From positions 806,001-870,000 of the forward strand of contig NZ_JAEPPI010000001.1 in assembly GCF_017641085.1 (NCBI RefSeq): a stretch of 64,000 bases of DNA. The letters run 5' to 3'. This document shows, piece after piece, positions 45,797 through 51,220 of the stretch (within the stretch, counting starts at the first letter, position 1; each line of letters opens with the position of its first letter). The position numbers were made by a program, and so were the translations under genes. The stretch is from Gracilimonas sp. GTDB lineage: Bacteria > Bacteroidota > Rhodothermia > Balneolales > Balneolaceae. Under the pieces are notes generated by a model. The model ran no database searches. It was not told the DNA's origin and saw only the letters and a program-made list of their open reading frames with translations.

Positions 45797-46840
45797 TTAG
45801 CGGGTTGGAAACCAGACATAATCCCCTGATTTGTTGATATATCCGTAATTCTCCTCAATTTCGTCTTCAACCGGAACGTAGATGGTTACTCTTGCCAGTC
45901 CATTGTAAAAAGGCTTCACCTCATCAAACTTGGGAGAGGTAATCCGATTACCTGATTTATCGATGAACGTCCATTTGTTGTTGATCATAACCGGGGCGCG
46001 TTCTTCGGAGAACGTACCGGCTTGTTCAAATTGTTCCTCAATCACAAATTCCCCGGATTTGTTGATATATCCGAAAGAGTTAGAGCTTGAGCGGGCGGGG
46101 GCTAGTCCGTTACCAAAATCGCCCACGCTTATAAACTGAGGGGAAATGGAAACCTCACCGTTGTTGGCAATAAATCCCCAGCGGTCGCTAATTCGGACGG
46201 CAGCAAGCTGATTGGAAAAAGGCCGTGCTTCCGCATATTTGAAATCTACGATGGTATTCCCGGATTTATCTATATAGCCGTACAAATCATCATCCCGAAC
46301 CATGGCGCGGCCATTGCGAAATTCATTTTCTTCCACATAATCCATGTCATCGGGGAGGTCCACCGATTCAATTCGTTCTCCGTTTTCATCGATGTAGTAG
46401 AACTCTCTGTAGTCAACGCTGCGTACAAAAGCGCGCCCGTCAGAAAACCGGGAAGCACCACGGAATTTCGGGTTGATCACAAAATTTCCGGATGAGTTTA
46501 TATATCCCCAGCGACCATCAAACTGAACGGCAGCTTTGCCACCTGAAAAGCGGCGAATGTTATTGAAATTCCCCTCAATTTTAATTTCCCCTTTGGCGTT
46601 GATGTATTTCCAGCCCCAGGACTCGCGCACAACAGCAAGGCCTTCATGGAAATCACCCGCATTTTGGAAATCCGGTTCCAGTATAATTTCGCCCTGCTGA
46701 TTGATATATCCCCAGTCTCCGTCAACCAAAACGGGATATAACTTTACGGCATTATCATCATCGTTGCCGGTTACAGAGTTTACGAGGTCACAGGATGTAA
46801 GCGTGATCGCAAATGTGAGCAGTAGTAATAATCGTTTCAT
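45797..46840 (-). CDS. WG-repeat lipoprotein (second copy)
   Basis: 347 residues with a lipoprotein signal (MKRLLLLLTFAITLTSCDLVNSVTGNDDDN). About seven WG repeats follow, each with a core like WGYINQQGEIILEPDFQNA followed by FHEGLAVVR. It is 12 bases downstream of a longer paralogue (46853-47917) that shares the lipobox context CDL, the NDDDN linker and the C-terminal YGYINKSGDYVWFPTR pattern, so the pair arose by tandem duplication. WG-repeat proteins are surface or periplasmic with unknown ligands. Confidence 0.9.
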   Translation of the reverse strand: MKRLLLLLTFAITLTSCDLVNSVTGNDDDNAVKLYPVLVDGDWGYINQQGEIILEPDFQNAGDFHEGLAVVRESWGWKYINAKGEIKIEGNFNNIRRFSGGKAAVQFDGRWGYINSSGNFVINPKFRGASRFSDGRAFVRSVDYREFYYIDENGERIESVDLPDDMDYVEENEFRNGRAMVRDDDLYGYIDKSGNTIVDFKYAEARPFSNQLAAVRISDRWGFIANNGEVSISPQFISVGDFGNGLAPARSSSNSFGYINKSGEFVIEEQFEQAGTFSEERAPVMINNKWTFIDKSGNRITSPKFDEVKPFYNGLARVTIYVPVEDEIEENYGYINKSGDYVWFPTR

Positions 46841-46852
46841 GATTTTCTTGAT

Positions 46853-47917
46853 TTATCGGGTTGGGTACCAAATGAATTCGCCTTGCTTGTCGATGTATCC
46901 ATACCGGATGTTGTCATCGTTACCAATTTGAACGCGGGCAATACCATTGATAAAGCTTTCGGCCTGATCAAAAGGTTCGGTTATGGAAATGAGCTTGCTG
47001 CTTTTGTTCAGGTAAAACCAGTCGTTATTCAGCCGTATGGCCGCCATGTTTTCGGAGAATGGTTTTACTTCAGCGAACTGGGGCTCGATTACAATTTCTT
47101 CGTCTTTATTGATGAAGCCGATATAATCTCCGTCTCTGAACCAAGCCAATCCCTGTGAAAAGCGTCCGGCTTCTTCAAATTTAGGGGTGATTTCAGGGCT
47201 TCCGGATTTATTGATGAATCCCCATCCTTCCGCCGTTTCGATGGGGGCAAGGCCATCTACAAACTCTCCCGCCGTAGAAATCTGGAAGGTGGGATTGATG
47301 CTTTCATTGCCTTCTTCATCAATGTAAATCCAGCCGTTAAAGGTTTCCACAGCCGCCAGTCCGTTAGAAAAAGGACGGGCATCGCTGTACTGCGGCTCCA
47401 CAAGAACACTGCCATCGGAATTGATATATCCCCAAAGTCCGTCTATGCGAACGGCCGCTTTCCCTTCAGAAATGGGCTGGGCAAAATCGTACTGAGCTTC
47501 GATTACAAAATTGCCGGTTTCGTCGATAAAACCATACAACTGTCCCGGTAGCTGAACGGGAGCAAGGCCGTCTTGAAAATCACCGGCACTGGTGAATTGA
47601 GCCTCTATTACCAACTTGGCAGGATGGGATTGCACATATCCCCAAAGAGTACCTTCTCGTATCGCAGCGAGTCCGTCAGACACATCTCTGGCGAAATCGA
47701 ACCGGGGTTCCATAACGATGTTACCTGAGGTTGAAATAAATCCCCATTCTCCGTTCAACAATACGGGGTGAATGGTTTTCTGATTGTCATTATCGTCATC
47801 ATTTCCGACTACTGAATCCGCCAGGTCACAACCGGTCATCAACACAATGCCAAACAAGGCGATAAGCAGCAGCGAAAGTAATTTGGGCTTCAATTGTTGT
47901 TTTGCTGAATAGGTCAT
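46853..47917 (-). CDS. WG-repeat lipoprotein (first copy)
   Basis: 354 residues. Lipoprotein signal (FGIVLMTGCDLADSVVGNDDDND), then about seven WG repeats (WGFISTSGNIVMEPRFDFA, WGYINSDGSVLVEPQYSDA, WGFINKSGSPEITPKFEEA). The C-terminus YGYIDKQGEFIWYPTR matches its downstream paralogue. Its ATG overlaps the TGA of the DUF1501 gene (47914-47917), so the two are probably co-translated. Confidence 0.9.
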   Translation of the reverse strand: MTYSAKQQLKPKLLSLLLIALFGIVLMTGCDLADSVVGNDDDNDNQKTIHPVLLNGEWGFISTSGNIVMEPRFDFARDVSDGLAAIREGTLWGYVQSHPAKLVIEAQFTSAGDFQDGLAPVQLPGQLYGFIDETGNFVIEAQYDFAQPISEGKAAVRIDGLWGYINSDGSVLVEPQYSDARPFSNGLAAVETFNGWIYIDEEGNESINPTFQISTAGEFVDGLAPIETAEGWGFINKSGSPEITPKFEEAGRFSQGLAWFRDGDYIGFINKDEEIVIEPQFAEVKPFSENMAAIRLNNDWFYLNKSSKLISITEPFDQAESFINGIARVQIGNDDNIRYGYIDKQGEFIWYPTR

Positions 47918-49563
47918 TTGATTAAGGTCATTTTTTTGGTTTGAGTACCGGATGGTGTTTCAAGTTTATACAGGTAGGTACCGCTGGGCAGGTTGGCAGC
48001 ATCGAACTGGATGCTGTACTCTCCGGCTGATTTCCTTTCATTTATTATCGTTCGAATCAGGCTTCCCTTAATGTTATAAACACGAAGTTTTACATCAGCA
48101 GCTTTTGCCAGCGAGAACGAAAGGGTAGTGGTTGGGTTGAAAGGATTCGGGTAGTTCTGTTCCAGCTTAAATGATGTCGGGCCGTTACCTCTGCTGGTAA
48201 TTCCGGTAGGAACGGTAGCCGTAGAGTCCACAAAATCAAGCTTGTTAAAAGAGCCGTCAATTACAGCACCTGTTTCTTCATCGGCCAGGCCAAACCAGTC
48301 ATCCAGAATGGAAGTGTACACCGAACGGTAGTCGGTACTGAATACCGGGTCGCCCGAGTTATCTAAATTGGTTAGATCGGCGTGATTGCCGTAAAGGCCG
48401 CCATTAACCGGACCAAACACCATTACCGGGGCTGAAGAGCCATGATCGGTTCCATTGGATGAGTTTTCATCCAGCGTTCGGCCGAACTCGGAAAAAGTCA
48501 TAGTTAAAGCTTTATTCTGGAGATTATCACTTCCCAGATCCGCATAAAAAGCGTTCACGGAGTTGGCAATATCAGCCAGCAAGTTGGCATGGCCGCCGTC
48601 GGTTCCGCCCTGATTATTATGCGTATCAAAACCGCCTTTGGAAACCAGGAAAAGCTTGGTATTTAACCCGCCACGGATTAATCGTGCTACCACCGCCAGA
48701 CTCTGGGCAAGGGATGAGTTTGGGTACTGCCCCATATTGGATGCATTGTCTGCCGCTTCCTGAATAGATTCGAGATACTTGAAGGAGGAATTGGCAATTT
48801 TACGGGCAAAGGAAAGTGAATCACCAAAATCGTTAGAAGGCACGTTGTTTTCATCATAAAAACCGCCCTGCTCAAGGAATTGGGTAAACTGACTGGCACC
48901 GCCAAAGGTAACGCCCAGATTTCCGAATTCACTCTGGAAAAGGGTAGCAGAACCTCCAATGCGGACACCCAACGGGAATTCGGGAGGATTCATGATAAAA
49001 TCAGGGTTGTCTTCCACCAGAAATCGTCCGGCCCAGCCGGTATTCTCCACATCGCTGCTGCCACTACCGGTGGTCCAGATATCGGTTGCCCGGGCGTGGG
49101 AGCGGTTGGTGTTCGAATAACCCACATTATTGATTACGGCCATATTGCCATCACCCCAAAACGGCTGAAGGTTGCTCATGGCAGGGTGCATTCCGATATC
49201 ATCGCTCAGCAGAATAGAGTCCTGCTTACGGATGCCGATTGTGGGACGTTTCTGGTAATAAATATCATTCTCGACCGGGATAATGGTGTTCAGTCCGTCA
49301 TTTCCTCCGCTTAGTTGAATTAACACGAGTACGCGGTCATTATCGGCTCGGGATAAGCGGTTAAAAAACTTGGAACGGGCAAAGGTACTCACCGGCATTC
49401 CTCCCAACATCATAGACGAACCAATGGCGCCAAATCCCAGCGTACTCAGGAAACTTCGCCGGCTCCAGCTCTCATGATCATGTTTGTGAGCTTCCTTGTC
49501 TTCAAGGCTGGCTCCTTTACGTTCGTGGGATAACTTTGGATTATGATGATCGTTCTTACACAT
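47914..49563 (-). CDS. DUF1501 protein with Tat signal and C-terminal sorting domain
   Basis: 549 residues. A twin-arginine signal (SWSRRSFLSTLGFGAIGSSM) is followed by the DUF1501 sulfatase-like fold (VLVLIQLSGGNDGLNTIIP, GMHPAMSNLQPFW, FLVSKGGFDTHNNQGG, TFSEFGRTLDENSSNGTDHG). The C-terminus is a type A sorting domain (NYPNPFNPTTTLSFSL, ending TKKMTLIK). DUF1501 proteins regularly sit beside DUF1800, as here. Function is not established. The combination of Tat export and sorting domain is notable. Confidence 0.93.
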   Translation of the reverse strand: MCKNDHHNPKLSHERKGASLEDKEAHKHDHESWSRRSFLSTLGFGAIGSSMMLGGMPVSTFARSKFFNRLSRADNDRVLVLIQLSGGNDGLNTIIPVENDIYYQKRPTIGIRKQDSILLSDDIGMHPAMSNLQPFWGDGNMAVINNVGYSNTNRSHARATDIWTTGSGSSDVENTGWAGRFLVEDNPDFIMNPPEFPLGVRIGGSATLFQSEFGNLGVTFGGASQFTQFLEQGGFYDENNVPSNDFGDSLSFARKIANSSFKYLESIQEAADNASNMGQYPNSSLAQSLAVVARLIRGGLNTKLFLVSKGGFDTHNNQGGTDGGHANLLADIANSVNAFYADLGSDNLQNKALTMTFSEFGRTLDENSSNGTDHGSSAPVMVFGPVNGGLYGNHADLTNLDNSGDPVFSTDYRSVYTSILDDWFGLADEETGAVIDGSFNKLDFVDSTATVPTGITSRGNGPTSFKLEQNYPNPFNPTTTLSFSLAKAADVKLRVYNIKGSLIRTIINERKSAGEYSIQFDAANLPSGTYLYKLETPSGTQTKKMTLIK

Positions 49564-49585: not shown

Positions 49586-51220
49586 TTAAATGAGCTGGTA
49601 GGCCGGTAGTTGCTGCAAATAGGAAATGTATTGCCGGATGGCCTCGGCAAAGGTCTCTTCGTAGTAAAGGTTTCCATCTTGGTCGCTGTTTGCAGTGAAT
49701 TCGTACCAGGGAATGGTGCCCAATAGTATTTTGGTCAGGTTTATTTTGTACTCGGGGAACGAGTCAAAACCTGCAACATTGGAACTGGGGTGAAGGGCCG
49801 GATTGCCGGCAAAATCTTCATCGATTTTTCGAACGCCTACAGTATCAAGTGGGGGCGCCAATAAATGTTCGGCCAGGTCTTCAGCCAGTGTAAATGGATT
49901 TGACGGGTCTGATATTTTCTCAGCCAGCCGGATGGGATTGTACCGGTTGCCGGCGTTGTCGTATCCGTAAATAATATCGGTGAGGTTATCCCAGCGCGAT
50001 GGCATCAGGTTGGTGTTGAGCCAGGAATAATGCCCAGGTGTTCCGTCAGAATAGGGAGGATTGTAACCGGCCCATCCAAAAACGGTTTCGGGACGAAGAA
50101 GCTCCTCATTCAACTCCTGCATCCGCAGCCGTATGTATTCTTTCAGCTGAGAAGTAGGGGTGATTTCCAGCTCTCTCAGGTAACTGATAAAAACTTCGGT
50201 AGGACTCTTAATCCGGCAGCCGTAAAACCGCTCTTCATAAAAGTGAGCACTGCTCAGCAGCTTCTTCAGCACTTCACCGATATCAAAATTCTGGGCGATG
50301 CAATAATCGGCAAGGTCAGAAATAACCGTTTCGTTGGGTTGGGCGGAAACAAAGAACACGTACAGCTTCTTCGAGATAAAGTAGGCGACTTCCTGCTCTT
50401 TCTGGGAGAAAATCAGGTCGATAACAGTGTCCAAATCAAAATTACTGGCTACCCCGAAAATGGTTTTACTGGAACTGTCGAAACGGCTTTCATCAAAATA
50501 CCCGCTCAAAGTGGCATCATTTACCCGCCACCCGGTAACCGCCCGGGCTACTTCGGCCACATCACTTTCAGAATAATTATCGTTACCATCCTTGTCCTTG
50601 GGCCCGAGTGTAAAGAGCTCCATCAGCTCGCGGGCAAAATCTTCGTTAGGCTGGCCTTCACGGTTGTTATAGTTATTGAGGTAATACACCATAGCGGAGT
50701 TTTTGCTCATCCGTGTCACAAACTCCTTAAAGTTGCCAAAGCTGTATTCATGAAGCAGCTTCCAGTACTTATACATATGGCTTGCGTAACTGTCGCTGGC
50801 TTTATCGGGCAGGGCATTCATGTTGCTGTAAGAAACGGCAAAATGGTTGCTCCAGAACAATTTCATGCGTTCGCGCAGCCCGCCGTTATACATGGCATCC
50901 ATCCAGCGGAACTGAATATCATACACATCCTGAACATCCCCGGAATTGCTGTTACTGAACCATTGTGGGTCGTCTGGGAGGGGAGTGGAAATAGCGTTAT
51001 CAACGATGGCTTCTGCAGCATCTGTCGCGTTGCTAAAACTGCGCGCATAATTGAGGTTGTTAATCTTCAACCCAAGATGCGTGCGCCGCACCAAATGAGC
51101 AGCCTGAGTTTTACTCCAGGCTCCGGTATAAGCTTCCAGACCTGCCGCTTGTTGATTGCTATTATTCTTTGTTTTGACCGGGGACTCTCTCAAGCCCTCG
51201 TTGACCTCTTCACTAATCAT
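49586..51220 (-). CDS. DUF1800-domain protein
   Basis: 544 residues. Family signatures include HLVRRTHLGLKI, the WSNHFAVSYSNMN segment, NEDFARELMELFTLGPKDKDGNDNY and EVARAVTGWRV. It is the usual partner of DUF1501 and the first gene of the minus-strand unit DUF1800, DUF1501, WG, WG; the DUF1501 start is 22 bases beyond its stop. No clear signal peptide is seen from this start. Confidence 0.92.
   Translation of the reverse strand: MISEEVNEGLRESPVKTKNNSNQQAAGLEAYTGAWSKTQAAHLVRRTHLGLKINNLNYARSFSNATDAAEAIVDNAISTPLPDDPQWFSNSNSGDVQDVYDIQFRWMDAMYNGGLRERMKLFWSNHFAVSYSNMNALPDKASDSYASHMYKYWKLLHEYSFGNFKEFVTRMSKNSAMVYYLNNYNNREGQPNEDFARELMELFTLGPKDKDGNDNYSESDVAEVARAVTGWRVNDATLSGYFDESRFDSSSKTIFGVASNFDLDTVIDLIFSQKEQEVAYFISKKLYVFFVSAQPNETVISDLADYCIAQNFDIGEVLKKLLSSAHFYEERFYGCRIKSPTEVFISYLRELEITPTSQLKEYIRLRMQELNEELLRPETVFGWAGYNPPYSDGTPGHYSWLNTNLMPSRWDNLTDIIYGYDNAGNRYNPIRLAEKISDPSNPFTLAEDLAEHLLAPPLDTVGVRKIDEDFAGNPALHPSSNVAGFDSFPEYKINLTKILLGTIPWYEFTANSDQDGNLYYEETFAEAIRQYISYLQQLPAYQLI

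Follow-up and report, generated by a model that had tools for sequence, protein, structure and literature searches.

A 64,000-nucleotide stretch of the Gracilimonas sp. genome (assembly GCF_017641085.1, contig NZ_JAEPPI010000001.1, positions 806,001 to 870,000; hereafter the window) encodes a DUF1501 protein whose N-terminus has the features of a twin-arginine translocation (Tat) signal and whose C-terminus is a type A sorting domain of the type IX secretion system (T9SS). Both signals are conserved in the same proteins across the phylum, and the gene has a nearly constant neighbour of the DUF1800 family that almost always lacks a working signal of its own. We consider it probable that this predicted surface enzyme takes the Tat pathway and then the T9SS, the likeliest reason being that it binds the DUF1800 protein in the cytoplasm and exports it as a hitchhiker. 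The features concerned, all on the minus strand, are the following.

47914..49563, minus strand, DUF1501 protein with Tat-type signal and T9SS type A sorting domain, 549 amino acids (open reading frame with ATG start, profile matches)
49378..49563, minus strand, predicted Tat signal peptide, residues 1-62 (cleavage after TFA read by eye; conservation)
49465..49488, minus strand, conserved part of the n-region, H26xxxH30xxW33 (conservation in class homologs)
49447..49464, minus strand, twin-arginine motif S34-R35-R36-S37-F38-L39 (conservation)
48220..49344, minus strand, predicted alkaline-phosphatase-superfamily catalytic domain, residues 74-448 (AlphaFold2 model, comparison with the PDB, conservation)
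47929..48153, minus strand, T9SS type A C-terminal sorting domain, residues 471-545 (profiles; AlphaFold2 strands 478-547)
49586..51220, minus strand, DUF1800 partner gene, 544 amino acids, without signal peptide or sorting domain (profiles)

An earlier note on this DNA had reported the Tat-like N-terminus together with the type A sorting domain; its coordinates and motifs were correct, and the observation is confirmed by curated cut-offs for the tail and by conservation for the Tat signal.

A conserved Tat-type signal

The protein, which matches DUF1501 (PF07394) with 79.7 bits (cut-off 27), starts with MCKNDHHNPKLSHERKGASLEDKEAHKHDHESWSRRSFLSTLGFGAIGSSMMLGGMPVSTFA, and its residues 32-45 (SWSRRSFLSTLGFG) contain R35 and R36 within the motif WSRRSFL. 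The motif is independent of the choice of start, since M1 and the arginines have no further start codon between them, and T60-F61-A62 is a plausible cleavage site. Considering the hydrophobic h-region, the best 12-residue hydropathy is 1.47, below that of all 49 other sorting-domain proteins scanned in the genome (1.88-3.25), as expected of a Tat signal and not of one for the general secretory (Sec) pathway. The protein therefore displays the [ST]RRxF[LIM] motif ahead of a weakly hydrophobic h-region by which a Tat substrate is recognised.

To place the protein among its relatives, two samples were read. The class search covered 244 genomes, of which 189 contained a match, in many cases only to the tail that these proteins share; 110 loci were read, three open reading frame pieces were dropped ahead of the count, 109 DUF1501 proteins had a readable N-terminus, and 20 rows were removed from set A1 to give A3. 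The phylum sample (n=84) consists of the window protein and 83 proteins from named genomes, the incomplete L160 having been dropped from set A2, and by record title it spans Flavobacteriia, Chitinophagia, Saprospiria, Ignavibacteria and others.

R35 and F38 do not vary in either sample (109/109 and 84/84). Position 36 is arginine in 103 of the 109 class homologs and lysine in the other 6, and it is arginine in 79 of the 84 phylum members, the five others having RK (L159 and L205) or RH, RQ and RA (L167, L168 and L170, whose records are titled Spirosoma or Cytophagaceae). That the RH, RQ and RA variants arose through loss of Tat was considered and ruled out, given that the three genomes have TatC. 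The earlier note had named a non-conserved arginine pair, along with demonstrated Sec export, as what would speak against its idea; the pair is conserved. These alignments indicate that the motif is under selection and not a chance occurrence, and that it varies no more than the presumed catalytic residues do. The tail is retained as well: TIGR04183 was found in 76 of the 84 phylum members and in 85 of 89 class proteins, where the four misses are divergent tail-less homologs that had been included deliberately. Thus, the joining of a Tat signal to a T9SS sorting domain proposed for this protein is supported, and with the motif conserved phylum-wide and most members tailed, a whole family of T9SS cargo very probably enters by Tat. 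What the earlier note had treated as a single odd protein is one of a widespread family whose operon partner lacks a signal.

The n-region is itself conserved. H26 and H30 are each present in 103 of the 105 class homologs having those residues, and HxxxHxxW is maintained in lineages with a long n-region, which is unusual in a signal peptide. Residues 21-30, ahead of the arginines, are predicted to be ordered by AlphaFold2, with a mean predicted local distance difference test (pLDDT) value of 83. This region is perhaps a chaperone or docking site.

Sorting domain and export machinery

The C-terminal domain scores above curated cut-offs with both T9SS models, PF18962 (Por_Secre_tail; 45.5 bits, cut-off 27, residues 471-545) and TIGR04183 (43.2 bits, cut-off 23), and it is also matched by the FlgD_ig model. 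Three of its residues, G500, G528 and Y530, are invariant in the phylum sample (84/84). The 3.49 Mb genome holds one TatC (202 bits) and the T9SS core searched as SprA, PorU and PorV (1547, 1097 and 341 bits, all over cut-off), with a single, full-length SprA and with PorU adjoining PorV. Among relatives, TatC is present in 49 of 50 other named genomes carrying the DUF1501 family, including those with RH, RQ and RA, a test that covered 50 of the 80 named loci.

Sorting domains occur at 51 places in the genome, and N-termini were read for 50 of these genes, leaving out the one at 809579 (window end region), which is incomplete in the stretch used. The earlier note had called for a survey of sorting-domain proteins for Tat signals, and in this genome it yields 1 in 50: only the window protein has a Tat motif at a credible start, and the others look Sec-like. 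R[RK]x[FLIVM] does appear near the h-region in 3 of the 49 others, not as a Tat motif at a credible start; in two the match, RRNM or RRSV, precedes the start or coincides with it, and the third has RKGF well ahead of the h-region.

Multicopper oxidases were considered as a second family combining Tat with the T9SS and rejected, the sorting domain being found at 0 of 30 loci though several had clear Tat signals. Matches were present in 89 of 198 phylum genomes and the tail profile was built from 32 tails of the window genome; since only the best-scoring 30 places were checked, the result is not a survey.

The predicted enzyme

In the AlphaFold2 model of the DUF1501 protein (mean pLDDT 84.5, predicted template modelling score (pTM) 0.70) the signal region is disordered and the C-terminal sandwich is well defined. 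The core (approximately residues 74-448) resembles the nucleotide pyrophosphatase/phosphodiesterase 7n1s (Z 18.1, rmsd, the root-mean-square deviation, 3.4, 248 residues aligned), PafA 5too (Z 17.6) and choline sulfatase 7ptj (Z 16.9), and the top Foldseek match of the model is the phospholipase C PlcN (9gy2). PlcN and PlcH are members of the alkaline-phosphatase superfamily, for PlcN in agreement with this match. By its predicted fold, the DUF1501 protein belongs to the same superfamily. D89, S155, H156, D313, H315, E359, D373 and H374 are invariant or nearly so among homologs and would provide the metal ligands and the nucleophile, in keeping with an active metal-dependent hydrolase. No sequence relative of either the DUF1501 or the DUF1800 protein was found in the PDB.

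A constant neighbour without a signal

The DUF1800 gene lies 22 nucleotides upstream of the window DUF1501 gene. DUF1800 stands beside DUF1501 at 105 of the 110 class loci, the five misses having almost no upstream sequence before the contig end, and at 75 of the 80 named loci, where three misses start at a contig end and L164 and L177, with 4 kb visible, are the two exceptions in which upstream DNA is shown. In the 75 named pairs the gap between the genes is mostly below 70 nucleotides and they sometimes overlap. A pair of the same type, beside Bacteroidota-like relatives, was also found on a chromosome titled Glaciecola amylolytica (L221, nominally Gammaproteobacteria), which is either a mislabelled genome or a case of transfer.

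The window DUF1800 protein has no export signal, as expected of a hitchhiker partner. For its relatives, 184 open reading frames were collected, 147 of them with a visible 5' end and at least 400 amino acids, and 146 were classed (38 dropped: 37 without a visible 5' end or shorter than 400 amino acids, one without a start codon). No hydrophobic signal is present in 131 of the 146, of which 96 have no signal at all and 35 have only an MxRRxF or similar start (for example L233, L198, L132 and L088). An RRxF followed by a hydrophobic region occurs in 6, about four of them convincing by eye, and another hydrophobic stretch in 9, of which L152, L153 and L187 look Sec-like; L166 and L232 carry a full Tat-like signal of their own. 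The bare MxRRxF start, seen in around a quarter of the proteins, is possibly a decayed Tat signal or an accessory Tat-binding element. At L152 and L153 the arrangement is the reverse of that in tailed pairs, a tail-less DUF1501 with a Tat-like start standing beside a DUF1800 with a Sec-like signal. Given these classes and the tail-less state of those two pairs, the DUF1800 protein beside a tailed, Tat-type DUF1501 is nearly always without a working signal.

Structure prediction of the pair

At 16 named loci the two genes share a reading frame with one stop codon between them. These read-through chains were aligned together with single rows, 34 for DUF1800 and 34 for DUF1501, and the chain of L175 was predicted. 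The resulting model of 1036 residues has a mean pLDDT of 86.6 and a pTM of 0.80. By a simple calculation, two bodies of such size with undefined relative placement would give a pTM of approximately 0.5-0.55, and 0.80 would correspond to a mean inter-protein error of about 5 Å, a value derived from the pTM and not from the error matrix. The model lends provisional support to a defined DUF1501-DUF1800 complex. The 50 Foldseek matches listed for the pair model comprise alkaline-phosphatase-superfamily proteins, sulfatases and a few beta-domain proteins; none was assignable to DUF1800 in this search, made with the pair model and not with a separate DUF1800 fold.

Proposed export route and its alternatives

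In the mechanism that we favour, the DUF1501 protein would fold and assemble with DUF1800 in the cytoplasm, TatBC would recognise its signal, and the folded enzyme would cross the inner membrane, carrying with it the DUF1800 protein, which has no working signal. The T9SS would then recognise the sorting domain, the cargo would pass through SprA, and PorU would remove the tail. Tat would most likely be used because DUF1501 binds DUF1800 in the cytoplasm. We infer all of these steps after translation, the enzyme activity included. The signal-less constant neighbour and the pair model lead us to favour assembly in the cytoplasm and hitchhiking, and the Tat export route of the window protein taken by itself is a strong prediction from its sequence. 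A more far-reaching form of the proposal, in which the preassembled heterodimer crosses both membranes folded, by Tat and then SprA, on a single sorting domain, so that a signal-less protein reaches the surface, is a tentative one to which we give somewhat less than even weight.

The main alternative accepts the passage from Tat to the T9SS and keeps DUF1800 in the cytoplasm, where it would serve DUF1501 specifically in folding, metallation or proofreading, binding it, perhaps at the n-region, and releasing it to Tat. Tat substrates often have dedicated chaperones, and the absence of a hydrophobic signal in 131 of 146 DUF1800 proteins, like the unusually conserved and partly ordered n-region, fits such a role. 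It is harder to reconcile with the DUF1800 homologs that have full signals of their own, Sec-like in L152, L153 and L187 and Tat-like in L166 and L232, which place those homologs outside the cytoplasm, and with the many whose MxRRxF start suggests descent from ancestors that had a Tat signal. We regard this cytoplasmic role as unlikely, although it deserves more weight than the explanations that follow.

Several observations count against the hitchhiker route by Tat. The TIGR01409 match to the window N-terminus (49393-49467) reaches 13.8 bits, below the cut-off of 16.7, and the window protein is not among the matches listed for the Pfam Tat profile PF10518 in the genome. The second arginine is replaced by lysine in six class homologs, and by histidine, glutamine or alanine in three phylum members whose genomes bear TatC, so not every family member is a canonical Tat substrate. 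The few DUF1800 relatives with signals of their own mean that hitchhiking is not universal, and the pTM of the pair comes from one read-through chain, without a mismatched-pair control. As to the profiles themselves, the window protein is fourth of the five places listed in the TIGR01409 genome scan, and none of the other four lies at a sorting-domain place; TAT_signal_seq is matched by 9 of 89 class homologs (E <= 0.001). PF10518 was rejected as a Tat detector here, its five weak matches in the genome including none over cut-off.

The profile score below cut-off and the loss of the second arginine in a minority, such as the Spirosoma-like L167, L168 and L170, would also be consistent with export by Sec, the arginines forming an ordinary basic n-region and the motif being conserved for some other reason. 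The invariant R35 and F38, the near-invariant R36 and the weak h-region fit Tat and not Sec, and among the 49 other sorting-domain proteins scanned none shows the motif at a credible start; we consider Sec export improbable. Slightly less probable still is that, once exported by Tat, the protein goes no further than the periplasm or the outer membrane, its C-terminal sandwich being no working T9SS signal in this family: TIGR04183 does not match 8 of the 84 phylum proteins or the four class homologs without a tail, and FlgD_ig also matches the domain, but the tail exceeds the curated T9SS cut-offs, its three invariant residues are kept in all 84 proteins, and the genome encodes SprA, PorU and PorV along with about 50 tails of this kind.

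Comparison with known systems

Passages of two reviews describe T9SS cargo as exported by Sec (PMC9251779, PMC5449463); the first states there that the substrates bear a signal recognised by Sec, and a figure legend of the second gives Tat for the type II secretion system (T2SS) only. The window protein agrees with known type A cargo (TIGR04183/PF18962) in its tail above cut-off and in a genome with SprA, PorU and PorV, and differs in its Tat-type inner-membrane signal. Type IX cargo is described as crossing unfolded by Sec, whereas DUF1501 pairs a signal for folded export with the type IX tag. In the open-access literature searched on the T9SS and Tat, mostly titles and abstracts, no report of a Tat-exported T9SS cargo was found, which is weak evidence that none exists.

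The Tat motif on DUF1501 and its operon pairing with DUF1800 were pointed out in 2016 for bacterial chitin-synthase loci (PMC5122149). Those operons share with ours both families and the DUF1501 motif; passages of that report on them mention no T9SS tail, and the hosts are mostly Proteobacteria. The PlcH and PlcN phospholipases of Pseudomonas aeruginosa, according to the relevant part of one paper, use Tat and then a separate outer-membrane system, the T2SS, that moves the folded protein (PMC4899797), a precedent for the two-step logic of DUF1501 export; the T2SS differs in having no C-terminal sorting domain. Hitchhiker export by Tat is presented as established for HybOC and PaoABC in an excerpt of another (PMC4273604), with the signal on one subunit and an operon partner without one, as in our pair; these complexes contain redox cofactors and have the periplasm or the inner membrane as their destination, whereas a second export step is predicted for DUF1501. 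What would be new here is that a known class of T9SS cargo takes another way in and probably brings along a passenger that has no signal.

If this is true, the T9SS would accept, beyond Sec-exported chains, substrates already folded and perhaps assembled in the cytoplasm, and the capacity of the SprA pore for folded cargo could be tested with a natural substrate. It would also explain the function of two large uncharacterised families, DUF1501 and DUF1800, as a pair, and imply that secretome pipelines miss such partners if they take Sec export of T9SS cargo for granted or leave out proteins without a signal.

Neighbouring genes

Two further genes follow DUF1501 on the same strand.

46853..47917, minus strand, WG-repeat protein with a lipobox-like N-terminus (by eye), its start overlapping the DUF1501 stop (ATGA)
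45797..46840, minus strand, second WG-repeat protein with a lipobox-like N-terminus

A WG-repeat open reading frame is present at 27 of the 30 class loci checked, compared with 1 of the 80 named loci (L159, Balneolaceae).
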